NCBI GenBank assembly: GCA_031291305.1
Contig: JARLJH010000040.1
Location: 1-64,000, forward strand
DNA: 64,000 nucleotides
Direction of reading: 5' to 3'
Origin: Rhodoferax sp.
GTDB lineage: Bacteria > Pseudomonadota > Gammaproteobacteria > Burkholderiales > Burkholderiaceae_C
Shown piece after piece: positions 27,607 through 55,892 of this stretch. The translations under genes and the position numbers were made by a program. The first letter of the stretch is position 1. Each line of letters begins with the position of its first letter. Under the pieces are notes generated by a model. The model was given only the letters and a program-made list of their open reading frames with translations, did no database searches and was not told the origin of the DNA.

Positions 27607-27626
27607 CCCCTTCAAGGAAACGAACC

Positions 27627-31210: not shown

Positions 31211-31211
31211 G

Positions 31212-39020: not shown

Positions 39021-39764
39021 ATGCGATTGATACTTGTTGAAGATGACAAGATGCTGGGCGAAGCTGTGCAAACTCATCTGAACCGCTCGGGTTTCGCCGT
39101 CGATTGGGTTGGATGTGGCAATGATTTTTCTGAAGCCGTCAGAGGCCACCATTATGACTTCGTGGTATTGGACCTGGGTCTGCCAGACTGCAACGGTGAG
39201 GTATTGGTCAATCAAGTGCAACAGCAGCAACGTCGCGTTCCTGTGATTGTGGTGACGGCGCGCGGCAGCGTGTTTGATCGGATCAAACTTTTGGATCTGG
39301 GTGCCGATGACTTTCTGGTCAAGCCATACGATTTGGATGAATTGACGGCGCGCATTCGATCTGTACTGCGCCGACAACCATCAGACGACGCCGATGCCGG
39401 TGCGTCCGTGCATGGGCCACTGTGCCTGTATCCCTTGCGATTTTCAGCAACATGGGAGGGTAAGCCCATCCCTCTGACCCACCGCGAGTTCTGGGTGCTG
39501 GAGGTATTGGTTCGCAGAAAGAACCAGGTCTTGACACGCGCGCAGATCGAGGAAGCTCTGTATGGCTGGGGCGAGGAAGTGGAGAGCAATGCGATTGAGG
39601 TGTATATCCACATGCTGCGCCGAAAAATTTGCCCTGATCTGATTCATACCGTCCGTGGGGTTGGCTATCAGTTGGCTCCGGCCCGAATATATGACAGATA
39701 TTGCACGGGTCCGGTCGGTGTCGAGCCAAGTGACGCATGTATCGAATGTAGTCGCCAAAGTTGA
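39021..39764 (+). CDS. OmpR-family response regulator, PmrA/QseB-like
   Basis: Regulator of 247 residues: receiver with EDDKMLGEAV, phosphoacceptor Asp in FVVLDLGLPDCNG, Thr in VTARG and Lys in LVKPYDLDEL. The winged-helix domain follows with PLTHREFWVLEVLVRRKNQV, EVYIHMLRRKICPDLIHTVRGVGYQL. It has no adjacent kinase, while the kinase at 36438 has lost its own regulator gene. It is the best candidate to bind the YTTAAK-N5-YTTAA boxes at 25769 and 56194, the site type used by its subfamily. Confidence 0.92.
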   Translation: MRLILVEDDKMLGEAVQTHLNRSGFAVDWVGCGNDFSEAVRGHHYDFVVLDLGLPDCNGEVLVNQVQQQQRRVPVIVVTARGSVFDRIKLLDLGADDFLVKPYDLDELTARIRSVLRRQPSDDADAGASVHGPLCLYPLRFSATWEGKPIPLTHREFWVLEVLVRRKNQVLTRAQIEEALYGWGEEVESNAIEVYIHMLRRKICPDLIHTVRGVGYQLAPARIYDRYCTGPVGVEPSDACIECSRQS

Positions 39765-39827: not shown

Positions 39828-40511
39828 TTACTGACTTATGAGTAACTGCGTCATCCATTCTGGCAAATCTACCAATCCGACCTGCATGGCAATCAGCGTC
39901 ATCTCAGTCGCGTTGCGAACGCCAAGTTTGCGCATAAGACTGGCGCGGTCTTTCTCGATCGTCTTCGGACTGATGCATAGACTTTTGGCTGCGTCCAAAT
40001 TGGATTTTCCTTCCGCAATCAGTTGAAGTATGCCCCGTTCACGGACGGTGAGCTTATCGACTTCTGGCAAATCACTATTCGGTTTATTAGGAAAGACAAA
40101 ACGATCAACAACATAATGAGAGATATCCGGGGTAAGGTATAACTTGCCTCTTGCAGCGCTGCGCAATGCAACCCATAACTCATCCACACTGGCGTCCTTT
40201 AAAACAAATCCATCGATGTTTAAACGCAGGGCGGCGCGCACGTAATCTTCAGCCCGCAGACTGGTCAGCAATACAACCTTAACCTGAGGGTGACGGTGTT
40301 TAATCTGCTTGATCGCTTCAAGTCCGTTGCCTCCCGGGGACTTGACGTCAATCAAGACTAGGTCAGCATCAATATGATCCAAGGCCGATGCGGCCGCCTT
40401 GCCAGAGTCCAAGTCTCCCACAACCTGAAAATCCGATAAAAACGAGATCAGCGCTGCAATGCCTTTGCGGAAAAGCATGTTGTCGTCGACCAAAAGTATC
40501 CGGGTTTTCAT
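39828..40511 (-). CDS. NarL/FixJ-family response regulator
   Basis: Receiver plus LuxR-type regulator of 227 residues, paralogous to the one at 35387. The Asp is in DLVLIDVKSPGGNG; LLTSLRAEDYV and VLKDAS follow, and the HTH is LTVRERGILQLIAEGKSNLDAAKSLCISPKTIEKDR. In the HTH, KDR replaces the usual KHR. It lies downstream of the oxidase operon on the same strand but 232 bp away, so it is probably transcribed from its own promoter. Confidence 0.92.
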   Translation of the reverse strand: MKTRILLVDDNMLFRKGIAALISFLSDFQVVGDLDSGKAAASALDHIDADLVLIDVKSPGGNGLEAIKQIKHRHPQVKVVLLTSLRAEDYVRAALRLNIDGFVLKDASVDELWVALRSAARGKLYLTPDISHYVVDRFVFPNKPNSDLPEVDKLTVRERGILQLIAEGKSNLDAAKSLCISPKTIEKDRASLMRKLGVRNATEMTLIAMQVGLVDLPEWMTQLLISQ

Positions 40512-40743: not shown

Positions 40744-42393
40744 TTACGGGACAGTCCACTCACTGTCAGCCACGATACTTTGCCTGTTACCCCCATCTTT
40801 TTGAGTATCAAAACGAACCACGTAGCCGCCCTTGGACCCAAAGCGCTGCCCTGGCGCCAGACTCAACCGCGGGTAGTACCCATTGACAAGCCTGTGAGAC
40901 ACCATGGCTTCAACACACTCAACCAGATAGTCTGGGACAAAGCTATCCAGCATTCCTGTTAATGTCTCAGCCAGAATGCCACAGGCAACGTAGGTGTCCG
41001 CTTGAATCCGTTCATCCACGATTGGCAGATGTTTGATCCGGAGCCAACTTTGCGGAAAATTCATCCTCACCTTGCGCAGCTCAGGTAAATCCACCGGGTA
41101 GGTTAATCGGGCCACAGTTCGCCAAGCCTCAGGCAACGGTGCGTTCTCCATGCCAGACATGATGCCTGAAATAAAGACCCGCGTGGGTATCGGCGTGATC
41201 GACGCAAGCTTTTGAATATCTGCCGGGCGCAGCCACAACGCCAGTGCATCATCAGGTGCAAGGCCGCCCAGCGCCAACGTCATCTCCTTTTGATCAGACA
41301 ACTCGTGCTGCAGAGGACGGTTTTCCACCTTGATGCCTGAAGCCCTTGCCAACGCAGCCAAGGCGCTGCTCGCTGACTCACCGACATCACCTTGTCGGTA
41401 CACCTGAACCAGCCGCGCTATATGGGGTGAGTCCGTCAAGCTTGCCGATTGTCCAAAAAGCCCCTTAGCCATCAAGTCGGCTTCAAGCAACACACCACGA
41501 GAGAAATAGATTGGATAGAAATCATTTTCAGCCACCACCGGCAAATCAACGTTAGGTAACAGGCAGGGTAGCTTCTCAACTTCACAGAAGTGGTGTATTG
41601 GTGCCCAAGTACGTCCACCCAATCCGGAAATCACCGCAAATACGGGCTCCGCTGCTAATCGTGCACGCAATTGTTGCTCCCACTGATCGGATTCACCGCT
41701 GAGTTGCCAGACGTGTAACTGCCAGCGGCGTGACACCCGGTATTCGATTTCACGCGAAGACTGCAAGGGACGCACACCACCACGAATGAATTGATTTTTA
41801 TCTGCAAAAAAATGCTCCATCACATCAAGCATCGCCTGACGCTTGATCGGATCAGAATCCGGTGTGATGATGGTGGCAAAGTGCAAAGTATCTCCAATGA
41901 CCCCACGAGTCGGCATTGCGCTCAGGCCTTTGAGATAGTTTGTGAGAGACGCCATGCTGAGGTCGTCCATTGGATATCGCGGCATTAAATAGCTCAATGT
42001 GCGGCCATTGGGGCCAACTCCTTCTCTGATAGCGCGCGCCAAGGTTTCATCGGTATAGGGTTCTCTTGTGGATCGATAACCAGACACGTGCGGCAGGCTC
42101 ATATCCTGTACATTGGTTGAATGGGACCGAAACAGATATTTTCCGATGATTGGTGGTACAACAACACTCCCCTCGGTGGTACCCAAGCCACTGGGGCGAT
42201 GACAGTTCACGCAAGCTGCATGCAAGCCCTCCACCACGCCACCCTCGTCGCGATAGCCCCGAAGCGGTACGGTTGAAGGCAATTCACCACGGCGGTAAAT
42301 GGCCTCTCCTGCGCTGGTGTCCAGCCCCCTCCCAAATGCGATGGGCGAAGACAGCAACAGAACAAGGCACGCTAACCAACATTTCGTTTGCAT
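40744..42393 (-). CDS. Cytochrome c fused to a periplasmic ligand-binding-like domain
   Basis: Exported protein of 549 residues: signal peptide (CWLACLVLLLSSPIAFG), a c-type cytochrome domain with one heme motif CVNCH (residues about 59-63) and candidate axial Met in YLMPRYPM near 130. A ~380-residue domain follows that looks like a type 1 periplasmic binding protein of ABC or receptor type. ATG 42393 is chosen because the signal peptide starts there. Last gene of the oxidase operon, 14 bp after the Sco gene. It could take electrons from the oxidase system or sense a ligand. Confidence 0.8.
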   Translation of the reverse strand: MQTKCWLACLVLLLSSPIAFGRGLDTSAGEAIYRRGELPSTVPLRGYRDEGGVVEGLHAACVNCHRPSGLGTTEGSVVVPPIIGKYLFRSHSTNVQDMSLPHVSGYRSTREPYTDETLARAIREGVGPNGRTLSYLMPRYPMDDLSMASLTNYLKGLSAMPTRGVIGDTLHFATIITPDSDPIKRQAMLDVMEHFFADKNQFIRGGVRPLQSSREIEYRVSRRWQLHVWQLSGESDQWEQQLRARLAAEPVFAVISGLGGRTWAPIHHFCEVEKLPCLLPNVDLPVVAENDFYPIYFSRGVLLEADLMAKGLFGQSASLTDSPHIARLVQVYRQGDVGESASSALAALARASGIKVENRPLQHELSDQKEMTLALGGLAPDDALALWLRPADIQKLASITPIPTRVFISGIMSGMENAPLPEAWRTVARLTYPVDLPELRKVRMNFPQSWLRIKHLPIVDERIQADTYVACGILAETLTGMLDSFVPDYLVECVEAMVSHRLVNGYYPRLSLAPGQRFGSKGGYVVRFDTQKDGGNRQSIVADSEWTVP

Positions 42394-42407
42394 CGCCGTA
42401 GAGTGAC

Positions 42408-43037
42408 TCAGTTTGTCGAGGTAAGTGATGCCGACGACGCCGTGAGCTTCGCAAATTGGTCCATCAAATCTTGAGACGACGCAAAGCCGTCCATCCGTAC
42501 CCATGATTTACCAGGGGCAGAGCGCAACAGTGTCAATGAGCTGTGATTCATTTTGTCTCCGCCGTAGACGTTAAAAGCCTTCTCTGTCGCAATAATTGCG
42601 TTGACAGTACCTGTGTAATGCTGCCATTGGCTACCAGCGGAGTACCGTTGCGCATACACCCGCAAGCGTGCGGGCGTATCCTGCTCCGGGTCAATCGTAA
42701 TGGACACCATATGGACTTTCTCGCGTTGATCGCCCAGACGCGACTGGAATTCCGAAAACACCTGACTCATGAGCGGACAAATTCCGGTGCAGGTGGTGTA
42801 GATGAAATTTAGGATAACCGGGCGGCCATCGTTGAGCTCTTGCGTCAACAGCACCTTTTGACCGTCGTCACGAATCAGCCAAAGTGGTGGCACGGTGTAT
42901 TGAGCCGTGGTTACAGTCAGGCCTTTTTCCGGGTGAAGACCGTGGGCTTGCGCGACGAATGCGTTGGTTCCCATCGTTACAGATGCAAAAAGCATTAAAG
43001 CGATGGCCTTCTTGGGATAGAAAGCGTGAAACTTCAT
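42408..43037 (-). CDS. Second Sco1/SenC-type copper chaperone
   Basis: Exported thioredoxin-fold protein of 209 residues with signal peptide ending near AFVAQA, copper motif CTGIC in IYTTCTGICPLMSQV and the distal His in MNHSSLTLLRS. Start ATG 43037 is preceded by a strong GGAGG. It sits within the multicopper oxidase operon, so it probably loads copper into, or maintains the cysteines of, that enzyme before export. Confidence 0.88.
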   Translation of the reverse strand: MKFHAFYPKKAIALMLFASVTMGTNAFVAQAHGLHPEKGLTVTTAQYTVPPLWLIRDDGQKVLLTQELNDGRPVILNFIYTTCTGICPLMSQVFSEFQSRLGDQREKVHMVSITIDPEQDTPARLRVYAQRYSAGSQWQHYTGTVNAIIATEKAFNVYGGDKMNHSSLTLLRSAPGKSWVRMDGFASSQDLMDQFAKLTASSASLTSTN

Positions 43038-43157
43038 GATGAACCTCCGTTTGAATATTGGTCCGACACCAGCTATTTGGTTTGGCAAACCAAGAGTCGT
43101 GCGTTCCGGGTTTTGGGCACAAGAGCGCGCCAACCTCCGGTGCCGACCTCATCTACG

Positions 43158-44042
43158 TCAGGTCGGCTTGGAGAAGTGGGAATCTGGCAGCGCGGGATTC
43201 ACCGACACCTGATGGATATCGATACGCTGAGATGTTGTAGCCCCGGCGTACCTGTCCTCCAGCACAAATGGCAACATAAGATTGCCCACCTTGCGATAGT
43301 CACTCATCGTCGTGACAACAATACGCTCCTTGCCGCCAAACGAATGTGGCACCGCAAGCCTGACATCCAGAAAGGTCTGCGCATCAATCCAGAGAGTGAG
43401 CTGGTCGCCGTTCTTCAGGGCGAGCTTGAGCTTGTAGGCCTCACGTCCATCAACAGGGTCCACGCCAGCCAATTCAACGTGCGTGCCCTTGGCGGCGTAG
43501 TCGATCAACGGGCCGTCAAGCTCCTGTTGGCTTTGCGCCAAGCGCTGCTCATAGGCGCTGTATGGTTCGACCTCGTGCCGACCCAGGTATGGCCGCAGCT
43601 TCCAGCCAACCGAGCCGTTATAGACCTGGATTGCTTTTGCTCCCCGCGCTTCGATCTCCACGCGCATCTGCCGCGGGCGACGGAACTCGATTAAGTATGG
43701 CAGCCGTATAACCGTGTCCGCATGGGCCTCAGCGGCAGTCAATTCAGGATGCAGGCGCTTGCGCGGCCGGTCCGGGCTGCCGCGCGTTTCCTCAACCAGT
43801 TTGCGGGTGTCTGGCGTGGTGTGACCGACATCCATCAAACCGGACATGGACAGCGTCTGCACCGAGTGCCAGGCAGCGGAGCCGCCACGCGCTGAGATGT
43901 TGCGGGCCAGGATGGTGTCCAGCGACAATGTGGCCGCCTTGCTTTGGGCATGGCTGAACGCGGGAAAGGACCCCGCCAACAGCGTCACGCCCAGGGAGCC
44001 AAGCGCCGTTCGACGGGTAGGTGAAAAGATCGATTGAGTCAT
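43158..44042 (-). CDS. Exported protein, LolA/LppX-like fold, of the oxidase operon
   Basis: Protein of 294 residues with a twin-arginine-type signal (SPTRRTALGSLGVTLLAG). The mature part, ARGGSAAWHSVQTLSMSGLM, MRVEIEARGAKAIQVYNGSVGWKL and KLALKNGDQLTLWIDAQTFL, follows the pattern of outer-membrane lipoprotein-sorting-like half-barrels that bind hydrophobic ligands. The specific role is unknown. Placement between the giant oxidase protein and the Sco gene suggests an accessory in assembly or surface delivery. Confidence 0.72.
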   Translation of the reverse strand: MTQSIFSPTRRTALGSLGVTLLAGSFPAFSHAQSKAATLSLDTILARNISARGGSAAWHSVQTLSMSGLMDVGHTTPDTRKLVEETRGSPDRPRKRLHPELTAAEAHADTVIRLPYLIEFRRPRQMRVEIEARGAKAIQVYNGSVGWKLRPYLGRHEVEPYSAYEQRLAQSQQELDGPLIDYAAKGTHVELAGVDPVDGREAYKLKLALKNGDQLTLWIDAQTFLDVRLAVPHSFGGKERIVVTTMSDYRKVGNLMLPFVLEDRYAGATTSQRIDIHQVSVNPALPDSHFSKPT

Positions 44043-44054: not shown

Positions 44055-44603
44055 CTAGTCGACGATGATTTCATCGGCGCGAAAATCGCCAATGACGATG
44101 CTGACACGGTCTCCGGGCGCCACCAGCTTGCCTGGATTGCCAAAGATCACAAAATAGGTGCGGTCCGCCAAGGGCGTGGCTGTCTGGCGTAGCTCCCCGA
44201 TATTTTCCATCGCAGGCACCGCCAGGCGGGCACCGGTTTTTGCATCAATCAGGTACGGTCGCAGCCTGTTGTCAAACAGAGGCAGCGCCCGCAGCACATT
44301 CACAACGCGGTAGCTCAGCTTGAGCATATAGCCGGACGAAACCCGGTGCACACCGGCGATGTCAACCCCCCAATTGCGCTTGTAGCGGTCGCTGTAGCGC
44401 GCATGCCAGGTTTGCTGTGCGGTCGTGCTGTCGGCCATGGCCTGGGTGTCGCCTGCATAGGCAGAAAACACCGAACACACGAACCCAAACAGCAATAGAG
44501 CAGAACCCAGCACGGCGAGTCGATGTCGGCAGAGCCGCCGTGGTCGGCCAGTGTCAAGTCCACTGGCCGAGGGGCAAAGCGAAAGCATGTGATCAAACAT
44601 CAT
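44055..44603 (-). CDS. Hypothetical membrane-anchored/exported protein of the oxidase operon
   Basis: Protein of 182 residues with one hydrophobic segment (LAVLGSALLLFGFVCSVFSAYAG, residues 29-51), then a small domain with YMLKLSYRVVNVLRALPLFD, RPYLIDAKTGARLAVPAMENIG and RTYFVIFGNPGKLVAPGDRVSIVIGDF, possibly a beta-sandwich. I do not recognise the family. It starts 7 bp after the giant protein gene and ends 12 bp before the next, so it is firmly in the operon. Confidence 0.7.
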   Translation of the reverse strand: MMFDHMLSLCPSASGLDTGRPRRLCRHRLAVLGSALLLFGFVCSVFSAYAGDTQAMADSTTAQQTWHARYSDRYKRNWGVDIAGVHRVSSGYMLKLSYRVVNVLRALPLFDNRLRPYLIDAKTGARLAVPAMENIGELRQTATPLADRTYFVIFGNPGKLVAPGDRVSIVIGDFRADEIIVD

Positions 44604-44610: not shown

Positions 44611-47600
44611 CTACTTCGCCGTACCCGACAGGGTCGATGTCTGCGTTCCGGCGCTGTCGGTCACGCTGATGGTTGCGGCACGGACACTGCTAGCAGGATC
44701 GGCGGTCCTTGCCTTGAACTGTATGGTGACCACACAGGTCGCGTTTGGTGCGAGCGTGGTGTTCGGTCCGCAGGTTGACAGCAAGTTAACCACGGTGTAG
44801 TCAGCTGGGCTGGTACCACCGAGAACCCCGTTCGTGATTCCGATCAGCGGCACATTGCCTGTGTTAGTCAATGTGAAGGCCTGCACAGGACCCAATGCGC
44901 ATGCAGCCCTCTGAAGAAAGTTTGTACCAGGGCAGGTGCGTGTCATGGTGGGACTCCATGTTGTCGGTGTCAAGGACGCACTGTTGACTGCTGCAACGCC
45001 TGTTCCGCTGAGACTGACCGGCGCACCCGTGACGGCAACATTGGCGCTGATCGCCAGCGTTGCCGTAGCCGTACCCGCAGCGCTAGGTGCAAAGGTGACG
45101 GTGATCGTGCAACTTGTATTTGCGGCAAGTGTTGCGGTGCAAGTACCACCCGACCGCGCAAACTGAGGCACTGACGGCGTCACGGTGATGCCGGTAAGGG
45201 CAGCGGTGCCTGTGTTGCTCAGGGTGAGGGTCTGGGCCAGACTGCTTGTGCCCACCGCGACAGATCCGAAGGACAGCGAGCCTGGGCTGACGCTACCGAC
45301 CGCAAGGTTGGCCGCCGACACGAATTCATCAGCGCCGATGTCGAACTTGCCACCTTGCGGACGTGCATCACCATCGATGTCGTGGTTCGTCACAGTTGTC
45401 GTGGTACCCGTGTTGTAAGCGCTCCCAGAGGCGGCTGCCAAGTGGTAGTCGCCGTTGACTTTGGTTCCAGTGGCCTGGTCCATCACCGACAGCGGGCCAA
45501 AGTGCAGGTCCACGAAGTTACCCGACTCGTCCAGAGTAGCCGCCACCGCCAGATTGAAAGGTGGCTGGAATGGTGTGCCAGGCTCAAACTGCAAACCAGG
45601 AGTCGTGCGCGACGCGTTGCAATAGACCTTCACCAGACCGGGGTTGCCAGCCGTTGTCGACAGCACCGTGTTGCCGACTGCAAACCTTGCAGTCGCCGCG
45701 GCCGATGTGTCACCCACAACGCCCAGGTCCCAATACTTCTCTTGCGCAGGAACACAACCGTCGACACCGGGCGTGCCAAGAGCGGCCGGTTTGGTCGCTG
45801 CTGCTGCATCAGTCCAATTGTTGGAGGGGCTCAGCTGCGAGGTGCCGTCAACAATCGTGAAGAAGAACGAGCGGTTGTGCCAGACGATGTTGTTCACCAG
45901 ATGTGGGTTCGAGACGGCATTGGCAGTACGTTGGCTCGATGGAAGTGCTGCCAACAACGGCGCGGAAGTCATCTCCGAGCTGATGCCCGCAGGGCTTGGC
46001 ACAGCCGTGGTTGGGCCGGTGTTGACAGTGCCAACCTGTGTACTGAAGAGACTGCCGGCAATGCCGGTGCTGTCATTGGACACAATCGTGTTGTTCACAA
46101 TGTTACTGAACAGTGTGTCAGACATCGAGATGCCTGCACCCGCATAGGCCGCGAGGTTGTTGGTAATCATGTTGTTGGTAAGGGTGATCTTCCAACTTCT
46201 CGTGGGTGCCCCGACTCCTTCAGAACCATTGACGCTCGCGAGTCGCACACCGCCACCGCTGCCAGCACGGGCAAAGTTGCCCTGGATCACGTTGGCGTCC
46301 ACCAGCACATTGCCAGTACCTAATGAAAGCGTTGTGCCAGTGGCACCTTCGCCTTCAATCACCAGACCACCGCCGGACTGCACGCCGGTTTGCTGGTAAC
46401 TCTCGTTGAAGAGAATCTTGTTGTTGCTGATGGTGCCGTTCATGCTCAGCCCTATGTGGCCAATGCCGCCACCGTCGCTGCTGGAGTAGTTACCGCAGAC
46501 CCAGTTGCCTGTGACTTTGTAGCCGTCACTACCGGCGCAGATGGACAAGCCACCACCGGCACCACCGGCAGCCGCAGCAATCGCTCCTGCTGCGGGAGCG
46601 GCCTCCACGGTGCCATTGTTGGTGATGGCATTGTGGTGGATGTTGACATTCTCGTCGTACTTGAACCCCGAGAATGCATTGGTCAGTGCCTGGCCTTCCA
46701 AGTAGGGCTGGCCAACGCGAATACCTGCGGCCAGTGTGCCCGCGTTGCCAAAGACGCGGTTGTTGGAAATCTCCAGGTTATGCGCCCAGCCATTGACGTA
46801 GATACCGCCGCCGGCGTCACTGCCTGTGAAACTCAATCCGTCTATGCGTGCGTTGCTGCAACGGAAGTTGTGAATATTGCGACAGTCGGCGGCGCCGGCG
46901 TTCAGCGGCGTCGTGCCATCGTTGCGATAGCCCTTGGCCAGTACGGTGATGCCTGCGCCCTCTTCGGTGGCAAGCACTGATGGTTCAAGCAGGAGAATGC
47001 CACCGGTAATCTCCTGGCCAGGCAGTGGGTCAACTGGTGGCACGCCGGGCAAGGTGTTGCCCTGGTTGTCAAGACCGAATAGATTGTTGACCCGTGTGCG
47101 CCAGGCATCGAGCTTCTGGTTCGGGTACTTGGCTGCATTGACCACGGTGGCGGCCGCGCCTACGCCTTGCAGGCGAATGGGACGATCCATCACCAGGAGT
47201 TCACTGTAGTTGCCCGCATCAACAATGATCAGGTCGCCCGGTGCAGCGTTGTCAATCGCATCCTGAATGGGATGCTTGAGCGTGTCGGGACCACTAGTGG
47301 AAAGGTCCGGCGGGCCAACATAGAAGGGTGCGCGATAGCCCCTGGACCTCGAATCGGCAATGGTCACCGTCACGGCGTCGATCGACTTCACACCGCTAGA
47401 GGTGGTGATGACCAACTCGCCCGTGCTCACGCCAGTCGATGGCACCGTGAGCGTGATCTTCTGGTCGCTCCAGTTGGCTGGTAGCACGGGGACGATGGTG
47501 CCGTTGATGCTCACCGTTCCGGGCGCAGCGCCAAAGCCGTAGTGACGCGAGATCTTCGGCTGGTTGACCGTTGGATGGGTAGCGTCTGCAAGCGCAGTTG

Positions 47601-50600
47601 GACCTTCGTAGGCGGGGTTGTTGACCATCACATCACCCAGCGCAGTGATCGTCAGTTGGCGCGTGGAACTGGGCGCAACGTCGACAAAGGGGCCCACATT
47701 GTTCTTGGCAGTCGTGGTTCCAGGGGCTGCCACCAGCGTGCCGGTGCCGTCAACACGGAAGATGGAAGGCGTGCTGTCCGGATAGGCGCAGTCCACCGGC
47801 TCATAGCTGGAGCCTGAGGCATAGGCCGACACTGGCAACACGGGCGTGTCCAGGTAGGTCGTGATGCCTGGCATGGACGGCCACACATAGCAGAAGTTGC
47901 TGAACATCGGGTTGTAGCTCGGGTCCACGACCATGCGTACCTTGCCCGTGCTCGGGTCGAGCGTGCCCAATGGATCCGGTATGGGACCGGGGTCGTTCAT
48001 GCAAAAGGTCAGCATGTTGGGCGCGTAGCCGCTCGGATTGGGAACGTTGGCTTCCCAGGTCGATGGCACCAGGTGGTTGAAGGTACCCCATTTGTCGTTG
48101 TAGACACGGGCGATTTCAAGTCCGTTGTAATCGCGTACCGAAACGGGCGCGTTTGGCAGTGAGGCTTTCTCCAGAAAAGCAGGGTTGTAAGGGTCGAACT
48201 CGGCCGCAGCGTCGTTGAGCATGATCCCGCTGATATGGCCTGCGATCGGGGTTTGCGTGAATACCTGGAAATCTGCGCTAGCCTGCGACTGATCAGTCAA
48301 GTTCACTTCCTTGTGGTCGCACAGCGGCCGATCTTGTCCGGCGTAGGGCGCAACCTGCTGGTTATCAGGGAACAAAGTCAGGTAGTCGGGCACCCGGTGC
48401 ATCTCACCAACACAGGGCGGGAACGATGTGTTGAGGTTGGAGCCGACCACCTTGGCGTCGTTCAGCGTGGCCTGATCTGGCACGATAAAGATATTGCCCA
48501 AGCCCATGAACTGAGTCGCCGCATACGGGGCAATCCATGCATCACCAATCAGGATGTTCTTGTCTTCTTCCTTGACGATTTCATAACCGTCTGGCATCAC
48601 CAGTTCAACCACATACTTGCCGCTGGGCAGCACGTCGGGGTAGGTCACACTGGCTGGCTTGTTGGTCAGTACGGTGTTTGCCGGGTTGGGCTTGCAGATT
48701 GAGCAATTGGCACTCGGGAAACGGTAGCGACCGTCATATACGGCAGGTTGTATTTGGTTGAAGTTGTGCTGACCGTCGTAACACTTGAACTGGTTCGCCG
48801 CGCCCAGCGTCACCTGGACCATGGGGTCGGTGGCTGGATCACCTGGGCAATGTATGGCTGCCGCAGCGTCATCCCAACTCCAGGTGGTGGTGTGGTCCAC
48901 CAGTATGCGGCTGACGCTACCGTCAGCGTTCTGAACTTCCTGGTACAGATTGACCGCCACGCGAGGCACTGCTGGCTCCCAGGAGAACTGCACTTCCAGG
49001 CTAGGGTCATCAAAACCACGGGTAGAGGCGTAATACACCAGGCCCGTGATGCCGCCGGTTTCGCCTGGCACATAGGGGCGTTTGCCCCAGTCAATCGAAG
49101 CGGTCTGGTTGATGAATCCCTGGGTGCCCTCGGTCAGGGTCGTACCAGGGTCAATGCGGCTGGTCAATCCCGCCGAGTACACGGCACCTGGCACCTGAAG
49201 TGCTGAGGGCAACGAGACGGTCTCCTTGGAATTGAGCACGCCACGGAAGTCTTTGGTGACTGACATATTGTTCAGGTCTGTGACGCTGATCGTCGCAATG
49301 TCGGGTTTCCCGCCAGCGTCATAGACGGTGTGTACACCGGTGCCGGTGTAGCGGGTCGTGTCAGACTCAACCACATACCAGTTAAACAGCGGGAACAACT
49401 CATTTGCCGTCACCGAGCCGGACGAGTCAGTGGTCAGAAAACTGGCAATGCTGCCGTCGCGAAAGCGCACATTCATGGGAATCTGCGACACACCGGGCTC
49501 GCCATCATCGCGCACACCGTTCTGGTTAGTGTCAATAAACGCGCTCTGTTCGATGCGGGTGAACCAACTGAAGACAGGTATGTCGCCAGCATTGACAACG
49601 GCAGAGGGCGTGTCGGGCACGGTAAGTGCCTTGTAGGCAATGATCTGGTCAAGCCACTGGTCCCAGATGACCAGGCTGTGGCTGCCAGCAGGCACATTCT
49701 TCAGTGAGAAGTTTCCAAACTCGTCGCAGGTGGCAAGCGCGACCGTGGCACCAGTGCCACCTGAGGAATTCACCCCCACATAACAAGTCGTTGCGTTCAG
49801 GCTCGCACGGCAGCTCGGGTCAGTCGGATTGACAGGCGAGCCGTCAGCATTCGTTCCCGTCGCACAGCTGTTGTTCAGGTTCGCCATCAACGGGGTCGGG
49901 CGATCCATGTGCAGGCTGGGCACGCGACCATTGACGGTGGCCGTTCCCTTTTGCGCCGCATTGACGGCGTTGATGTGATCCGGGTTGATAAAGCCGATGA
50001 ACGAGTGGAATCCGGGTGGGCCGAACTCCTGCCAGTACGGCTTCTCACCCGGTTTAACAAAGGTGTCATTGGCAGGGGTTCCCTCCAGCGTGGACACCTG
50101 GATCCAGGTCTCTCCCTTGACAGCGCGGTCGGCACCCGGCGTGGCCCATACGTCATAGCGGCCAGGGATGATGTTCTTGACCAAGGCCATGCCGGCCAGG
50201 GTAGACACATTGCCAGCGCTGTCCAATGCGGGGCAGGTGATGATGGTGCCAGACGGCGTGTTCATGGGACACATGTTCACACCCGTCACGCTGTCTTTCT
50301 GGTTGGCCAGGGAATTGGTAAACGGCATGCCCGAGAGGTCGTAGGTCATCAGGCCTGCCGGATCGCCGGAACTGCCACGTGTGTCGTACAGATTGATGGT
50401 GAAGCCACCCAAGCCCGGCTCGTTGTCGTCCACCCCCCCATTGGTTGGGTTGTTGTCTTCAAAGACAAACACGCTCAGCTGGGATGGCGGCAATGCATTG
50501 CGCGGTACCAGCACGGTCGCTGCATTCTGACCTGCAGCAACAGACACGCCCCCCATGGTGTGGCCGTAAGTCGCGCCTGCTGCAATGGTGCCATCAGCGT

Positions 50601-52770
50601 TGTACGAAGCACTGCCCTGATCAGCGTCACCCGGCAAAACGGAAATGTAGTAGCGTTTGAGTGGATCAAGTGCAACATCGCTTGGCATGGTGCGCACGCG
50701 TGGCGAGAACTTCGCACCCGTGTTGAGGTCACCACAACTGTTGGGGCCTGTGCAGCCTGAGGCAATGACTGGCATATAACTCTTGTGAAAATTCGTTGCC
50801 AGCGTGTTCTGTGCTGCCGGATTTTTTGGATCGTGAAAGAACGTGGTGTCTTCTTCAATCACCCAGCTGTAGTCGCTAAGCGGCGACTTGTCCTGTGAGT
50901 CCTGCACCGTGATAGCCAAGCCGGAGCCGACTGTAAAATTGACGGTCACACTGACCGGGGATGCGCTTGATGCACCCTGACTGTTTACCACGTGGTATGT
51001 GAACGTGCAAACACCACCGGAGGTCGTCGGCGTGGCGGTGAAACTGCCGTCAGACAAGAGACTGACAGCCTTGCAAGATGGGTCGACAACATCTATCACG
51101 GCCTTCAAAGGCAGTTTGGAAGGATCGCTGTCATTTGCAAGCACCCCCGGCGAACTGGATTTGTAAAAGCTCGACAGCTTGCTGGTGAAGGAGTCGGCCA
51201 GCGCAACCGGAACCCCACCGGTGGCACCCACAGTAATGGTTACCAGGGCGGAGACAGCAGCGTTGCCATTGCCCTGGTACGTGAACGTATCAGTTCCCAC
51301 ATAGCCGCTATTGGGTGTGTAGATGAAAGACCCGTCACTGGCGATCACGACGCTTCCATGGCTCGGCGTTGTCGCTCCGATTGCTGCGGTGACAACATTG
51401 ATGTCATTCTTCAACACATTGCCGTTGAAGCTGGTATTTGCCGGCGTTGCGAACATGTCGGGTACGGCACGCGCGCCAAGGCCTGCCGGGAGCGTAGCAC
51501 CAGTCGTGCCCGCAGTCGTTCCGGCCGCTTGCACGGCAACAAAGCCCAGCATGCCGCTGTTGATCTGGGCGGTGTGCGTCGTCAGGTTGCTGCCTGTCAG
51601 GCTCAGGGCGCGGTCGAATACCGGATACGAACTGGGCGTGTAGCTGGTCGCCCCTGACGCCAGCACCGGGGTGAACACCACGTCCATGGTCTTTCCTGCC
51701 GGCATCAGCACCTGGGACTGGGCCTTGGCGCGTCCGGGCAACAGATAGCCGTCTTCGGCAACGACGCGCAAAGGCGTCTGCAGGCCGACAATTGACGGCA
51801 CGTGGGTGCGCAGGCCAGCGTTGAGCAGGCGCAACAGTATTTGTCCGCCCCCCGAGGTCAACACCGTGTTGTCAGAGACGGGAAAGCCAGAGTTGGCGGG
51901 CTGGGTCGGATCAAAAGCGTGCCCGTTGATCAGGAAATAGGTAGGCGCGTAGTTGACCGCTGGCGGGTAGCAGGCTGATGTGGCGCAGCTCGCATCACTA
52001 AAAAGCGTCGTCACACTGGCGTGTGCGAGTGCTGCAGCATTCACAGCAGCGTTCTGACGCGGATCGATTTCACTGAACAAAAGCGTAATGTCTGCGTCAT
52101 AAGGCACGCGCGGCTTGGTCACGCCTGAGAGCGGATAGGCCTCGCCTGCAGAGGCGGCGGGTGCCTGGGTCACCACCACCACGCCATAGAGCCCCATGGG
52201 CGCTTGCAGCGAAGGCACCGAGCCGGTTTCGTACAGGTAGGTTCCGGGACGCAACTTAGACCAGGTATAGGTTATCGAGGTAGCGCCAACATCACCTGCA
52301 GCCGCTTCCGGGGAAAAGGCCCGCGCGCGCGCGCCCTGTTTCGGTGGCGTGAAACTGGCTGAGTTATCCACTGTCGGCCAAGTAATTGCGGGTGTACCGT
52401 TGTGCACCGGGCTATCCACACGGGGAACATCCGTTCCCGTACCACCAGATCCAAGCCCGCCTCCGAGCTGGCCAATAATCACCAGCGAAGTCGCCGTCGG
52501 CAACGTGTTGGTGAAGTTGATGGTCAGACTGCCGAAGCCACTTGAATCTGTGGGTACGACAATGATTGGCCCGGGCTGCCACGCGGACGTGCATGTGCCG
52601 GTGCTGCAATAGCCCCACATCGGCACCTGGCTGCCGTCAGGCAAAGTGGCTGCCATGGGCGCAGCAGTGATGTTCGCGACGGTTTGTGCCGAAGCTGCAC
52701 CGCTGGCGAGCAGCCCGGAGAGCGCAATAACTGCCGCTGGCAGCAACGCTCTGAAGAGGTGTTTGTACAT
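44611..52770 (-). CDS. Giant exported multicopper oxidase subunit with surface-type repeat domains
   Basis: Protein of 2719 residues. After a signal peptide (cleavage near ASAQ, residue 28) come two cupredoxin-like domains (about 30-430) that lack copper ligands: IIGQLGGG and YLYETGSV stand where HxH motifs are expected. Then follow two cadherin/Ig-like domains (about 437-615), SdrD-B/CNA-type domains including DTNQNGVRDDGE near 1080, an IPT-like part, a parallel beta-helix (about 1840-2290) and two choice-of-anchor-D-type domains to the end. Start ATG 52770 follows GGAGG. Third gene of the operon, 32 bp after the previous subunit. The long modules suggest surface attachment. There are no RTX repeats or autotransporter barrel, so export by the type II-like machine is likely. 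Confidence 0.85.
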   Translation of the reverse strand: MYKHLFRALLPAAVIALSGLLASGAASAQTVANITAAPMAATLPDGSQVPMWGYCSTGTCTSAWQPGPIIVVPTDSSGFGSLTINFTNTLPTATSLVIIGQLGGGLGSGGTGTDVPRVDSPVHNGTPAITWPTVDNSASFTPPKQGARARAFSPEAAAGDVGATSITYTWSKLRPGTYLYETGSVPSLQAPMGLYGVVVVTQAPAASAGEAYPLSGVTKPRVPYDADITLLFSEIDPRQNAAVNAAALAHASVTTLFSDASCATSACYPPAVNYAPTYFLINGHAFDPTQPANSGFPVSDNTVLTSGGGQILLRLLNAGLRTHVPSIVGLQTPLRVVAEDGYLLPGRAKAQSQVLMPAGKTMDVVFTPVLASGATSYTPSSYPVFDRALSLTGSNLTTHTAQINSGMLGFVAVQAAGTTAGTTGATLPAGLGARAVPDMFATPANTSFNGNVLKNDINVVTAAIGATTPSHGSVVIASDGSFIYTPNSGYVGTDTFTYQGNGNAAVSALVTITVGATGGVPVALADSFTSKLSSFYKSSSPGVLANDSDPSKLPLKAVIDVVDPSCKAVSLLSDGSFTATPTTSGGVCTFTYHVVNSQGASSASPVSVTVNFTVGSGLAITVQDSQDKSPLSDYSWVIEEDTTFFHDPKNPAAQNTLATNFHKSYMPVIASGCTGPNSCGDLNTGAKFSPRVRTMPSDVALDPLKRYYISVLPGDADQGSASYNADGTIAAGATYGHTMGGVSVAAGQNAATVLVPRNALPPSQLSVFVFEDNNPTNGGVDDNEPGLGGFTINLYDTRGSSGDPAGLMTYDLSGMPFTNSLANQKDSVTGVNMCPMNTPSGTIITCPALDSAGNVSTLAGMALVKNIIPGRYDVWATPGADRAVKGETWIQVSTLEGTPANDTFVKPGEKPYWQEFGPPGFHSFIGFINPDHINAVNAAQKGTATVNGRVPSLHMDRPTPLMANLNNSCATGTNADGSPVNPTDPSCRASLNATTCYVGVNSSGGTGATVALATCDEFGNFSLKNVPAGSHSLVIWDQWLDQIIAYKALTVPDTPSAVVNAGDIPVFSWFTRIEQSAFIDTNQNGVRDDGEPGVSQIPMNVRFRDGSIASFLTTDSSGSVTANELFPLFNWYVVESDTTRYTGTGVHTVYDAGGKPDIATISVTDLNNMSVTKDFRGVLNSKETVSLPSALQVPGAVYSAGLTSRIDPGTTLTEGTQGFINQTASIDWGKRPYVPGETGGITGLVYYASTRGFDDPSLEVQFSWEPAVPRVAVNLYQEVQNADGSVSRILVDHTTTWSWDDAAAAIHCPGDPATDPMVQVTLGAANQFKCYDGQHNFNQIQPAVYDGRYRFPSANCSICKPNPANTVLTNKPASVTYPDVLPSGKYVVELVMPDGYEIVKEEDKNILIGDAWIAPYAATQFMGLGNIFIVPDQATLNDAKVVGSNLNTSFPPCVGEMHRVPDYLTLFPDNQQVAPYAGQDRPLCDHKEVNLTDQSQASADFQVFTQTPIAGHISGIMLNDAAAEFDPYNPAFLEKASLPNAPVSVRDYNGLEIARVYNDKWGTFNHLVPSTWEANVPNPSGYAPNMLTFCMNDPGPIPDPLGTLDPSTGKVRMVVDPSYNPMFSNFCYVWPSMPGITTYLDTPVLPVSAYASGSSYEPVDCAYPDSTPSIFRVDGTGTLVAAPGTTTAKNNVGPFVDVAPSSTRQLTITALGDVMVNNPAYEGPTALADATHPTVNQPKISRHYGFGAAPGTVSINGTIVPVLPANWSDQKITLTVPSTGVSTGELVITTSSGVKSIDAVTVTIADSRSRGYRAPFYVGPPDLSTSGPDTLKHPIQDAIDNAAPGDLIIVDAGNYSELLVMDRPIRLQGVGAAATVVNAAKYPNQKLDAWRTRVNNLFGLDNQGNTLPGVPPVDPLPGQEITGGILLLEPSVLATEEGAGITVLAKGYRNDGTTPLNAGAADCRNIHNFRCSNARIDGLSFTGSDAGGGIYVNGWAHNLEISNNRVFGNAGTLAAGIRVGQPYLEGQALTNAFSGFKYDENVNIHHNAITNNGTVEAAPAAGAIAAAAGGAGGGLSICAGSDGYKVTGNWVCGNYSSSDGGGIGHIGLSMNGTISNNKILFNESYQQTGVQSGGGLVIEGEGATGTTLSLGTGNVLVDANVIQGNFARAGSGGGVRLASVNGSEGVGAPTRSWKITLTNNMITNNLAAYAGAGISMSDTLFSNIVNNTIVSNDSTGIAGSLFSTQVGTVNTGPTTAVPSPAGISSEMTSAPLLAALPSSQRTANAVSNPHLVNNIVWHNRSFFFTIVDGTSQLSPSNNWTDAAAATKPAALGTPGVDGCVPAQEKYWDLGVVGDTSAAATARFAVGNTVLSTTAGNPGLVKVYCNASRTTPGLQFEPGTPFQPPFNLAVAATLDESGNFVDLHFGPLSVMDQATGTKVNGDYHLAAASGSAYNTGTTTTVTNHDIDGDARPQGGKFDIGADEFVSAANLAVGSVSPGSLSFGSVAVGTSSLAQTLTLSNTGTAALTGITVTPSVPQFARSGGTCTATLAANTSCTITVTFAPSAAGTATATLAISANVAVTGAPVSLSGTGVAAVNSASLTPTTWSPTMTRTCPGTNFLQRAACALGPVQAFTLTNTGNVPLIGITNGVLGGTSPADYTVVNLLSTCGPNTTLAPNATCVVTIQFKARTADPASSVRAATISVTDSAGTQTSTLSGTAK

Positions 52771-52802
52771 GGTTTTTCCTCCTACGGTTTCTGCGGGTGA
52801 CA

Positions 52803-54329
52803 TCACTGTGTCTCGTCGATGTGCGAGGTCGGGGGGTCGATGATGAGCATCATCATCATTCCGCCCGGGAAGACGTTGTTGGTCGTGATCTCCCGCTCGT
52901 TATGCGAGTGCCACATATAGGCATAGCCTGCATTGGGGTTCTGTACCACCGCTGCGGGGGGCAAGGGCGTGGGGTTGGAGGACTGCAGGCCCAAATACGG
53001 TGTACCGCCGTACCAAAGCCCATTGGCCACCGCTTGCGGATCGGGTGGCGCTACGGGAATGTCCTTGCCATGATCGGGGCACCACTCGTGCGTGGTTGCA
53101 TCAAACGGGCTGGTGTATCCAAAACCCTTGCCTGCCAGCTGCGCCGTGACCGTAGCATCTGGCACTGTGATATTGGCGATTGCCGCGGCAAGTGTGACAC
53201 CATTGCATGTGTGCGCTTGGGTACGCCCATAGACATCCCAATTCAGACCCTGACCGGTCCATGTGAAGATCTGATCCTGCGTCTGGCCTGGAACCGTCGC
53301 CGTGGTGAACAGCAAGGGCCCGGCCAATGTCACACCATCGCTGTCGCTAACGATCATATTGGCGTCGCGTGCCAGCACACGTGCATGGTTGGCGTGGAAG
53401 TGGAATGGGTGCTGCATCCGTCCCTGCCCGATGATGCGCATCAGCACTAAGTCGCCAGGATGCATGTGCGGATTGCCGTTGTAGGGCTGATGGGGATAGG
53501 CCGGCGAATACGGCGTGTCCATATCGTCTGGCATGGAGCGTCCATTGACCAGGAAATACTGCGGCTGGTAGGGATCGGTCGCGATATTGAGCGACCCCGG
53601 TTCGCCGTTCTTGCCAGCTTCTGCAAGCCTGTGGATGGTGGCGTTCATTTCACTGAACTGGAACAGGTACTCGCGGTCGTAGCAGGTGTTCGGATTGTCA
53701 TACGCCGACGAGGCGAGAGAGAACTCGCCCGGTGTGGCTTTGCAGCCCACTGGCACAGTCGAGGGCAACACGATGATGGCGCCGAACATGCCCATCTCAA
53801 TCTGCAGGTCCGCCTGTGTGCCACTGTAGTAGGCATAGGTGCCGGGCTTGCTGGGTGTAAAGGTGTAGGTCACCGAGCAGCCAGGCGCTGCTTCGACGGC
53901 AATCAACCCTTGAGGAGCAGGCACACTCGCAACACAGGTGGACGGCTGCGATGTTGCAGGCGATGCAATGACATTTAATCCCGAAAACACAATCGACGTG
54001 TTGCCCGCCGCGCGCGGCAACTGGTCCGTGAGCGTCACGGTAACTGTCTGCCCCTCCGTGACAATCATCGTCGGGCCTGGCGTCTGCATGGTGGGGCAGG
54101 TGCCGGTCGACGGAAGGAATCCAGAGGGTGCGCTTGCGCAGCCGTAACCCCAGGAGTAGATGGTCGCGCCGTCAGGCTGCGATGTGTAGGCCTCTGTTGC
54201 CACCAGGTTGAAATTCGACCCGGTGATGCCAGGTACTGCAGCTTGGCATGTGCCCGCTGCGACCGTCAGCAGGCCGCCAAAGACAAGTATCGACGCCAGT
54301 TGATGAGCCCGGGTGAGTGCGTGCTTCAT
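52803..54329 (-). CDS. Multicopper oxidase subunit B (half of the trinuclear site)
   Basis: Exported protein of 508 residues with signal peptide (LASILVFGGLLTVAAGTCQA) and two cupredoxin domains. The first (about 35-200) lacks ligands. The second carries MQHPFHFHANH near residue 308 and MWHSHNEREITTN near 471, ending FPGGMMMMLIID. These give two HxH pairs but no type-1 Cys. It would complement the subunit encoded upstream, which holds the type-1 site and the other two HxH pairs. The gap to each neighbour is 9 and 32 bp. Confidence 0.88.
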   Translation of the reverse strand: MKHALTRAHQLASILVFGGLLTVAAGTCQAAVPGITGSNFNLVATEAYTSQPDGATIYSWGYGCASAPSGFLPSTGTCPTMQTPGPTMIVTEGQTVTVTLTDQLPRAAGNTSIVFSGLNVIASPATSQPSTCVASVPAPQGLIAVEAAPGCSVTYTFTPSKPGTYAYYSGTQADLQIEMGMFGAIIVLPSTVPVGCKATPGEFSLASSAYDNPNTCYDREYLFQFSEMNATIHRLAEAGKNGEPGSLNIATDPYQPQYFLVNGRSMPDDMDTPYSPAYPHQPYNGNPHMHPGDLVLMRIIGQGRMQHPFHFHANHARVLARDANMIVSDSDGVTLAGPLLFTTATVPGQTQDQIFTWTGQGLNWDVYGRTQAHTCNGVTLAAAIANITVPDATVTAQLAGKGFGYTSPFDATTHEWCPDHGKDIPVAPPDPQAVANGLWYGGTPYLGLQSSNPTPLPPAAVVQNPNAGYAYMWHSHNEREITTNNVFPGGMMMMLIIDPPTSHIDETQ

Positions 54330-54338
54330 GTCGTGCCC

Positions 54339-55892
54339 CTACTGAACAAGTATCTCGGTCATCATCCCGCCGAGGTTTTCGGCGTCGTTGGACAGATGAT
54401 CCAGATTGGTGGTGTAAACAAAATACGTACCTTTGGGCACGTCCGCAGAATCGATGATCACGTCGGCCGACTCGCCTCCGCCCAGCGTGATCGAATTGGT
54501 GTCGTAAGCGAGGTTGTTGCCAGCCATGTCACGCAGCAAGCGCGCGTTCCAGGCAATAACCTTCATCGGGATGCCGTTGGTAGCTAGCGTGTGGAATTCG
54601 GTGACGTTGAGGTCTGATACCCGCAACAAAGCGCGATGCGTGATGCCTGCAGCGCACGGCGACGTGCAAGATGTCAGCACGATCTTTGACGAAATGGGTT
54701 GGCTCGGCCTGGCCAAGCCGTCCGAATCCTGCGTGCGAATCTGGTCGGTGCTGACGGTGTCCGGGTAGCTGCGACCACTGATCATGAAATATTTGTCCTT
54801 CATGCCCGAGAAGTCTTCCGGGTTGAATGTCATGCCTACGAAGTGGAAGGCCGGATCAAAGCCCATGAGCTGCATCGGGTACTCGACGTCGTAGGCTGTG
54901 GAGCCGTCCCCGTCGTTGTAGGCGTATTGAACAGTGCCCGGCTCGCGGGTAGCAACGTTGGTCGGCGGGGCCGGCGTCGCACCCGTGCACAAAATGTCGG
55001 CGCAATGCACACCGTCGGTAGATAAGCCATGCGTTGTATTGTTAGCAACCAGCGCAACACGCAGTGAGTCACCGGGGGCTAGGACGTCCTGGCGGGGTCG
55101 CACATACAGCTGACCCACCATGCCCATCTGCAGGTGTTCTGGCGGGGTGATGTGGCAATGAAAGAAGTAGGTGCCGGCATCCGGTGCGGTGTAGTAATAG
55201 GTCATACTGCCGGAAATTGAAATGGCAATCGACGCATCGGGAACACCGTCAAAATAGGACGAGGCGTTTGGATAGCCGTGGAAGTGCACCGTGTGCTGCT
55301 CAAATAGATCGGGCCGCATGATCATCCCGACGTTGCTGAGCGTCAGAAAATACTCGTCGTCTTCGTTGATGGCCATCAGCGGCGCTGGTTGTTGAGCAGC
55401 CAGTACGCCGATGTTCATCATCGCCGCTGCGTCAAGCACGCCACCATTGGGGCTTGGAGGGCTGCTCGAAACGTAGGTCGGATCGGGCACTGGATTCATT
55501 GCGTTGCCTGCATCCAGACCTGGTAAGTTTGGCATGTTGTAGGCAGTATTGAATTCGGCTGCAGTTTGCGTTCCGGGCTTGCCTTGGCTGATCAGGTCGA
55601 TTCCCGACAGCGGCCCAAAGCCAAACAAATAGGTCTGACTGCCGTCAGCCATGGTGGCGTACCCATCGCCGCCGGATATCTCCTGGCACTTGATGCTGGG
55701 ATTGGGCAACATCTTGCCCGTGGGCACGCCATTTATTAACTCAGGCACGAGCGGGTGAAGTACTGTGCTCGTTGGACATTGCGTTCGCAGCAGCTGGGCC
55801 TGGGCTCCACCGCATAGCAAGGCGTTGATCACACATATTGCCACCACACACGCAAAGCGTTGTACGGCTTGACTGTTACTTAGTTTCAACAT
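54339..55892 (-). CDS. Multicopper oxidase subunit A (type-1 copper and half of the trinuclear site)
   Basis: Exported protein of 517 residues with signal peptide (VVAICVINALLCGGAQA) and two cupredoxin domains. The first shows HTVHFHG near residue 200 and FFHCHITPPEHLQMGM near 245, i.e. HxxHxH and HCH-x-EH-x-M: a complete type-1 ligand set plus four trinuclear histidines. The second domain (about 315-517) ends with TTNLDHLSNDAENLGGMM, where the WHSH motif is lost. First gene of the operon; ATG is preceded by GGAGG. A 679 bp regulatory gap lies upstream. Confidence 0.9.
   Translation of the reverse strand: MLKLSNSQAVQRFACVVAICVINALLCGGAQAQLLRTQCPTSTVLHPLVPELINGVPTGKMLPNPSIKCQEISGGDGYATMADGSQTYLFGFGPLSGIDLISQGKPGTQTAAEFNTAYNMPNLPGLDAGNAMNPVPDPTYVSSSPPSPNGGVLDAAAMMNIGVLAAQQPAPLMAINEDDEYFLTLSNVGMIMRPDLFEQHTVHFHGYPNASSYFDGVPDASIAISISGSMTYYYTAPDAGTYFFHCHITPPEHLQMGMVGQLYVRPRQDVLAPGDSLRVALVANNTTHGLSTDGVHCADILCTGATPAPPTNVATREPGTVQYAYNDGDGSTAYDVEYPMQLMGFDPAFHFVGMTFNPEDFSGMKDKYFMISGRSYPDTVSTDQIRTQDSDGLARPSQPISSKIVLTSCTSPCAAGITHRALLRVSDLNVTEFHTLATNGIPMKVIAWNARLLRDMAGNNLAYDTNSITLGGGESADVIIDSADVPKGTYFVYTTNLDHLSNDAENLGGMMTEILVQ

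Follow-up and report, generated by a model that had tools for sequence, protein, structure and literature searches.

The question raised by this locus is whether three neighboring cupredoxin genes in the window (i.e., the whole 64,000-nucleotide stretch of Rhodoferax sp. DNA analyzed here) encode the parts of one multicopper oxidase and, if so, which known enzyme plan they follow. The original prediction was a surface-tethered oxidase complex in which six cupredoxin domains are split over three chains.

Gene layout and cupredoxin domains

According to the open reading frame (ORF) list, genes A, B, and C are adjacent on the minus strand, in the order A, B, C:

54339 to 55892, minus strand: gene A (517 aa), a two-cupredoxin chain with a predicted type 1 copper site and half of a predicted trinuclear site
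52803 to 54329, minus strand: gene B (508 aa), a two-cupredoxin chain whose domain 2 is the predicted other half of the trinuclear site
44611 to 52806, minus strand: gene C (2,731 aa from a GTG), two cupredoxin domains without copper motifs and a giant tail

The likeliest start of C is the ATG at 52770, which is preceded by an AGGAGG stretch and yields a protein of about 2,719 aa. With this start, the gaps are 9 bp (A/B) and 32 bp (B/C), and each gene begins with a signal-peptide-like stretch (judged by eye), in agreement with the tight spacing and the three signal peptides predicted originally.

The six predicted cupredoxin domains were recovered with different methods. Protein A matched Pfam Cu-oxidase_2/3 at residues 167 to 267 and, below the threshold, Cu-oxidase at 420 to 499; B matched Cu-oxidase_3 at 82 to 189 and Cu-oxidase_2 at 252 to 349; C had no Cu-oxidase match in Pfam and was recognized by profile-profile comparison and AlphaFold2. 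Profile-profile probabilities were 98.6% (A-B), 99.95% (B-C), and 96.9% (A-C). The cupredoxin pair of C (51487 to 52770, minus strand; no copper motifs) matched profiles of two-domain multicopper oxidases (2dMCO) and copper nitrite reductases (best E value, 2e-5). AlphaFold2 and Foldseek were applied to A and C as single chains, while the domains of B come from Pfam and profile comparison. The best PDB match of the A model (pLDDT, 84.9) was 3g5w of N. europaea, which we take to be a type C two-domain multicopper oxidase (E value, 8e-18; TM-score, 0.45 when normalized to the query and 0.71 when normalized to the target). The C model (402 residues; pLDDT, 81.3) best matched 2zwn (E value, 2e-17) and 3g5w (E value, 3e-17), with modest TM-scores by query length (0.54 to 0.55). 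The alignments span 458 columns for A and about 390 to 400 columns for C, compared with two-domain copper oxidase chains of 316 to 318 residues. Because of the profile-profile comparison and the best PDB matches of the models, we assign two cupredoxin domains each to A and C; the three proteins appear to be paralogous two-cupredoxin chains.

Division of the copper ligands between A and B

The predicted copper ligands lie in the following motifs, with roles assigned by homology with 3g5w and 2zwn:

55278 to 55295, minus strand: A residues 200 to 205 (HTVHFH); H200, type 1; H203 and H205, trinuclear
55119 to 55160, minus strand: A residues 245 to 258 (HCHITPPEHLQMGM); H245 and H247, trinuclear; C246, H253, and M258, type 1
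53394 to 53411, minus strand: B residues 307 to 312 (HPFHFH); H310 and H312, trinuclear; H307 invariant too
52902 to 52910, minus strand: B residues 474 to 476 (HSH); trinuclear

In A, residues H200, H203, H205, H245, C246, H247, H253, and M258 are invariant (85/85 rows; this count, the 83-row counts for B, and the 84-locus count below include locus L055, a duplicate of L035), as they are in two other sets (37/37 and 13/13; the latter comprises 12 loci plus L036). In B, with gaps excluded from 83 rows, H307, H310, and H312 are conserved in 82 of the 82 rows that have a letter there, and H474 and H476 in 81 of 81; both motifs are kept in 13/13 rows of the smaller set. The HSH of B aligns, weakly, opposite the HDH of domain 2 of 2zwn.

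Profile alignments indicate that the counterpart places elsewhere have been lost, namely, in the first domain of B (T111, V114, and S116; Y168-S-G170), the first domain of C (T94, V97, and I99; E181-T-G183), and the second domain of A (A437 and N439; Y493-T-T495). The second domain of C keeps the first histidine (H323), followed by S326 and V328 (C numbered from 52770). Judged by these motifs, the eight trinuclear histidines are predicted to be split four and four between the first domain of A (A1) and the second domain of B (B2), with the type 1 site in A1. The two halves lie on separate gene products in every row scored.

Resemblance to type C two-domain oxidases

The structures 3g5w and 2zwn are the best sequence and structure matches for A and the best structure matches for C. 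In known trimers of two-domain oxidases, domain 1 of one protomer and domain 2 of the next jointly supply the trinuclear histidines, and in type C the type 1 site sits in the N-terminal domain (available text of PMC13151041). Type C enzymes and A have in common two cupredoxin domains per chain and the type 1 ligands (H200, C246, H253, and M258 in A) in the first domain. They differ in that type C is a homotrimer from one gene with three equal sites, whereas A-B-C would be the product of three genes with one surviving site. Read from the sequence, the A-B-C ligand pattern is that of a type C homotrimer that has become a heterotrimer and kept only one of its three sites alive.

The tail of C and neighboring genes

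Beyond its cupredoxin pair, C continues for about 2,290 residues, as had been predicted, and Pfam places several domains in this tail:

51037 to 51468, minus strand: Big_9/Cadherin_4-like domains
49348 to 49545, minus strand: best SdrD_B-like stretch
46414 to 46866, minus strand: right-handed beta-helix-like stretch (Beta_helix, 25.5 bits; cutoff, 25.9)
45040 to 45309, minus strand: choice-of-anchor D/ASH-like domain (ASH/HYDIN match)

The tail occurs either fused to C (the layout of the window) or as a separate first gene (the other layout), in operons that are otherwise alike, which links the tail to C. The genes behind C are as follows:

44055 to 44603, minus strand: U182, a small protein encoded downstream of C in loci of each layout
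43158 to 44042, minus strand: LolA-like protein (below the Pfam cutoff)
42408 to 43133, minus strand: SCO1/SenC copper-delivery protein (PF02630; E value, 7e-22)
40744 to 42504, minus strand: large protein with a CxxCH heme c motif (CVNCH, by eye; weak cytochrome c match below the cutoff)

A cluster of this kind is already in print, as Slit_1812 to Slit_1818 of Sideroxydans lithotrophicus ES-1 (Keffer et al. 2025; PMC12016527). As described in the available text of that paper, its products were raised on magnetite and include a cytochrome, SCO1, small proteins, two cupredoxin proteins with canonical oxidase motifs, and a large cupredoxin protein that lacks copper motifs and has adhesin/polysaccharide-lyase-like domains; relatives are listed in Paraburkholderia, Ralstonia, Anaeromyxobacter, and Steroidobacteraceae. 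By this description, the order in the window (i.e., A, B, C, U182, LolA-like, SCO1, and cytochrome-like) fits the kinds and order of the Slit genes, and a Sideroxydans sp. metagenome-assembled genome (MAG; locus L058) carries the same A-B-C. For this cluster, the available text of PMC12016527 mentions neither a shared active site nor a heterotrimer, a second layout, or a link to type II secretion; compared with it, the shared active-site reading and the link to secretion genes are new here.

Linkage to type II secretion genes

A type II secretion system (T2SS) cluster lies on the plus strand of the window at 25803 to 35390 (T2SS E, T2SS F, and secretin all present; 25.8 to 35.4 kb):

25803 to 26363, plus strand: pseudopilin-like gene (by eye)
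26374 to 27606, plus strand: T2SS F (search match)
27603 to 29315, plus strand: T2SS E (search match)
within 31493 to 33871, plus strand: secretin (search match)
33868 to 34377 and 34806 to 35390, plus strand: two pseudopilin-like genes (by eye)

Seven other loci also have T2SS genes near A. Loci L081, L092, and L115 have one weak secretion match each and were excluded from that count. Among 49 mutually related genomes (those with the best A matches, drawn as 50 of 80 loci, less L059), a T2SS E gene lies at most 30 kb from A in 22 (0.96 expected); in the other 27, no E gene lies within this distance, and it is mostly on another contig. The E genes belong to an upper class of matches (at least 47% identity and an E value of at most 1e-130), with a cut chosen after the score gap was seen; a partial match at a contig edge (G1078) was assigned to this class. 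Of 97 relatives that lack the oxidase (as judged by a search with B), 29 have the secretion ATPase lineage as well, which rules this lineage out as an exclusive oxidase marker and leaves the co-location and the enrichment. The T2SS genes near A suggest an export route, with the T2SS a candidate exporter of A, B, and C.

Proposed heterotrimer and its substrate

We infer a ring, its activity, an export route, surface display, and a substrate as follows. A, B, and C would assemble outside the cytoplasm into a pseudo-threefold ring like that of the type C homotrimer. One of the three interchain sites would be alive, with A1 providing the type 1 copper and four histidines and B2 the other four. Electrons from the substrate would pass to the type 1 copper of A, and O2 would be reduced at the A-B interface. 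C, free of copper motifs, would complete the ring and tether it to the giant tail, which is probably displayed on the surface; SCO1 may assist copper loading, and the nearby T2SS would be the likely export route. We assign a rough probability of 0.68 to this reading (i.e., an A-B-C ring with a single A-B trinuclear site, SCO1 loading, T2SS export, and a tail tether), and a multiprotein oxidase, as foreseen originally, is probable. A common view derives six-domain oxidases, ceruloplasmin among them, from simpler cupredoxin assemblies; if the reading is true, the ring, with its three unlike chains and single surviving site, would be a present-day form of the intermediate step, reached in a second line, that of type C.

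For the substrate, we lean slightly toward Fe(II) or Mn(II) at mineral surfaces, and the ring would then be a candidate for the extracellular oxidation of solid Fe(II)/Mn(II) by neutral-pH bacteria. A serious competitor, to which we give about one chance in three, is that the ring is real and acts on phenolic or humic polymers, the beta-helix part of the tail binding polysaccharide. By their record titles, many hosts are Burkholderiales and Acidobacteria, which live in soil, and the tail has beta-helix features. The polysaccharide-lyase wording in the main text of PMC12016527 and a lignin-acting two-domain oxidase (available text of PMC13151041) point the same way. Against a polymer substrate, the cluster is also present in Sideroxydans, Gallionella, and Gallionellaceae MAGs, and it rises on magnetite (main text of PMC12016527).

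The most far-reaching version of our reading is tentative, at somewhat less than even odds: that this is the first multicopper oxidase with a trinuclear site from two gene products, an obligate A-B-C heterotrimer that descends from a type C homotrimer, on a line separate from those of MnxG and ceruloplasmin, and that leaves the cell through the linked T2SS, is carried on a giant surface scaffold, and oxidizes solid minerals. No heterotrimeric oxidase was found in print among the matches listed (titles and beginnings of abstracts).

Codivergence of A, B, and C and alternatives to a shared site

A and B might instead work independently, as a blue copper electron carrier and a histidine-site metal binder with no shared active site. 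Each has its own signal-peptide-like start, and the type 1 site is complete in A. In the published Sideroxydans proteome, the abundance percentiles of the presumed A (Slit_1818), B (1817), and C (1816) were 29.5, 74.8, and 79.3 on late fresh magnetite and 9.0, 42.7, and 57.2 on late commercial magnetite. The presumed A is thus far below the presumed B and C, and A:B:C looks nonequimolar, as independent proteins might be. We nevertheless consider independence unlikely, given that the trinuclear histidines divide four and four, are invariant in both proteins, and have lost their counterpart halves. A and B also adjoin in the loci holding both, and the three proteins codiverge: their identity matrices correlate at 0.93 to 0.96 over 88 rows (L055 and L169, the latter a duplicate of L042, dropped), a level reached in 0 of 500 label shuffles, which leave shared species history in place.

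The original comparison with MnxG, MofA, and ceruloplasmin was not supported. A-B-C shares with them six cupredoxin domains and one trinuclear site, and gene neighborhoods add to the likeness: an mnxG operon includes an SCO protein, and a mofA operon includes a cytochrome c-type gene and a copper chaperone (available text of PMC8218464). However, as described in the available text of PMC3600357, by which we set A-B-C apart, these enzymes are single chains with type 1 sites in even-numbered domains; in bacterial six-domain forms of the MnxG/MofA kind, domain 2 holds the type 1 site, and domains 2 and 3 have the trinuclear site between them. In A-B-C, the type 1 site is predicted in A1 and the partner half in B2, with no even-domain type 1 site and no 2/3 site. 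The place of the type 1 site speaks against a split MnxG, and the A and C models match two-domain oxidases best; the same six-domain enzyme cut into three genes is therefore an even poorer candidate than independent proteins. One-chain bacterial forms reach 2,681 aa (same source), so the window is not alone in having long additions.

Among the matches listed (few candidates per genome scored), no frame longer than 1,100 aa fell outside the A-B-C family, and no full-length one-chain homologue appeared. A 2,371-aa frame in genome G766 was rejected as such a homologue, as it proved to be overlapping open frames, the tail gene that it overlaps lying in another frame. An assembly or frameshift artifact of a single long gene has a negligible probability, since 70 of 84 loci repeat the arrangement in identical order and strand, with A and B as separate genes and the tail joined to C, which establishes the three-gene split as real. 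Of the remaining 14 loci, 12 are cut by contig ends, 1 is fragmented, and 1 has the tail as its own gene. The C frame reaches the beta-helix part in 65 of the 70; the other 5 have the tail start only (L047 and L079 at contig ends; L062, L110, and L116 broken). A locus with a short A (L167) has no tail gene within its contig.

The family spans named strains of Cupriavidus, Paraburkholderia, and Collimonas, in addition to Acidobacteria. Cupriavidus metallidurans CH34 and Paraburkholderia caribensis are among those in which the plasmid search found relatives; in two plasmid records that were inspected, the region of the match is unannotated.

Gene cluster and predicted folds

The cluster comprises three genes, each with two cupredoxin domains (A1/A2, B1/B2, and C1/C2):
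54339-55892, minus strand: gene A
52803-54329, minus strand: gene B
44611-52806 (likely start at 52770), minus strand: gene C

The ORF coordinates bear out the tight spacing on the minus strand described in the original prediction (A/B and B/C gaps of 9 and 32 bp, taking the likely C start at 52770). Pfam oxidase domains were detected in A and B only and none in C, for which the domain search returned Ig/cadherin-like, SdrD-like, beta-helix, and anchor-D-like domains. Profile comparison identified A, B, and C as mutually homologous chains (repeat comparison, probabilities of 99.4% for A-B, 98.4% for A-C, and 100% for B-C). AlphaFold2 models cover A (pLDDT, 84.9) and 402 residues from the start of mature C (81.3), with B supported at the sequence and profile level only. 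The two-domain copper oxidases 3g5w and 2zwn were the best or near-best PDB matches for both models (A versus 3g5w, E = 8e-18; C versus 2zwn, 2e-17, and versus 3g5w, 3e-17), with TM scores of 0.67 to 0.71 by target length and 0.45 (A) and 0.54 to 0.55 (C) by query length. Given this profile homology and these structural matches, the six predicted cupredoxin domains are well supported.

Genes for a small protein (U182), a LolA-like protein, SCO1, and a large haem-c-motif protein lie 3' of C. The LolA-like protein (43158-44042) begins with a twin-arginine-like SPTRRTALG, while the starts of A, B, and C appear Sec-like by eye.

A divided active site

Multicopper oxidases use a type-1 ligand set and eight trinuclear histidines. 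In A1, the type-1 ligands (H200, C246, H253, and M258) and four trinuclear histidines (H203, H205, H245, and H247) were invariant in 85/85 and 37/37 rows of two alignments. B2 retains H310 and H312 (82/82) and H474 and H476 (81/81), and both ligand sets were also kept in a set of 13 loci scored separately. In profile alignments, the counterpart places are lost in B1 (T111, V114, S116, and Y-S-G), C1 (T94, V97, I99, and E-T-G), and A2 (A437, N439, and Y-T-T, the last opposite H474-S-H476 of B and H-D-H of 3g5w); A2 positions 437 and 439 were located via C because aligning A directly to B misplaces this stretch. In C2, S326 and V328 replace ligands and the first histidine alone is kept; the only C histidines conserved across loci are H135 and H335 (ORF numbering). 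Judged by motifs, neither A nor B alone can build a trinuclear site, and together they hold exactly one.

According to the available passages of PMC13151041, two-domain oxidases build the trinuclear site from first-domain histidines of one protomer and second-domain histidines of its neighbor, and type C carries the type-1 site in the N-terminal domain. A1 plus B2 matches this type-C pattern, except that the three chains here differ from one another. Should A1 face B2, the other two interfaces would be B1-C2 and C1-A2, and ligands are lost on both sides of each. We infer that A, B, and C form this ring; its oxidase activity and substrate are likewise putative. We read A-B-C as a putative oxidase of type-C origin, with one surviving active site divided over two gene products.

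The original prediction had compared the split A-B-C with MnxG and MofA, which are single-chain six-domain oxidases. For such oxidases, the passages available of PMC3600357 place type-1 sites in even domains and, in bacteria, the trinuclear one between domains 2 and 3. Judged by this published description, ligand placement differs; A-B-C therefore seems to have reached six domains by a route of its own and not to be a cut MnxG.

Comparison with a published cluster

The existence of such a cluster is already in print and is not new here. In the available parts of Keffer et al. 2025 (PMC12016527), the only paper found to mention the Slit locus tags, Slit_1812-1818 is the same kind of cluster, reached higher abundance in late magnetite cultures than in those with Fe(II)-citrate, has relatives in other Burkholderiales, Anaeromyxobacter, and Steroidobacteraceae, and is proposed to act in solid Fe(II) oxidation; canonical motifs are reported in two of the proteins and none in the third. 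Percentile abundances there were 29.5 for Slit_1818 (presumed A), 74.8 for presumed B, and 79.3 for presumed C on late fresh magnetite; the corresponding values on late commercial magnetite were 9.0, 42.7, and 57.2. The position of presumed A far below B and C counts against equal subunits. The literature passages and listings searched contained no mention of a single surviving site divided over two gene products, a type-C origin, a second layout with a free tail, or a link to type II secretion (T2SS).

Two layouts among relatives

Of 503 candidate stretches from a scan of genome contigs with an A alignment, 450 were relatives; the best 80 of these, together with G015, G094, C. metallidurans, and P. 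caribensis, gave 84 loci. Separate A and B genes, with C running in one frame into its giant tail in the same order and on the same strand, were found at 70/84 loci, confirming the predicted three-gene split and C-tail fusion. The C frame stops short of the tail at two loci (in G094 a different gene encodes the tail, and L066 is fragmented), and contigs end inside C (5 loci), before C (5), or before B (2). At L062 (13136-21392), L110, and L116, C is broken into at least two frames by sequence error or decay. Strong A matches are rare around the genome of the window (5/250 genomes of its family and 7/399 of its order). Single Acidobacteria genomes carry several copies (five A matches in that of L052 and four in that of L064).

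A class-wide search covering 369 genomes brought up a second layout. Among 12 loci with a shorter A (L036 of G094 and 11 of 12 fetched loci), 11 encode the tail apart, in one gene or a pair of genes preceding A; the remaining contig (L167) contains no tail gene. The cupredoxin pairs of A, B, and C are thus separate in both layouts, with the tail either fused to C or a neighbor. Between U182 and SCO1, G094 carries a subtilase-like gene with Ig/cadherin-like repeats (L036:6617-9229), and a gene carrying repeats of this kind occupies the same position in L174 and L175 (G165 and G272).

Neighboring secretion and regulatory genes

T2SS genes occupy 25803-35390 (~25.8 to 35.4 kb) of the window, beyond the oxidase operon, and related genes flank the front of A at seven loci (L048, L049, L053, L071, L089, L112, and L132), including those of Cupriavidus metallidurans CH34 and C. 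basilensis. A close T2SS E gene was present in 47/49 genomes behind the loci, lying ≤30 kb from an A gene in 22/49 (0.96 expected under random placement). It also occurred in 32/100 relatives, three of which (G000, G015, and G094) are those with a strong B match; the E gene is thus enriched with the oxidase without being bound to it. G094 carries it on the oxidase contig, ~25.6 kb from A; it did not turn up in any of the fetched second-layout stretches (9.4 to 20 kb). Our best guess is that T2SS exports A, B, and C, with their Sec-like starts, to the surface.

A sensor kinase (2CSK_N type) and an OmpR-type regulator are encoded at 36438-39764, flanked on one side by the secretion genes and on the other by a NarL-type regulator (39828-40511) that stands where the oxidase operon ends; metal-sensing control is possible.
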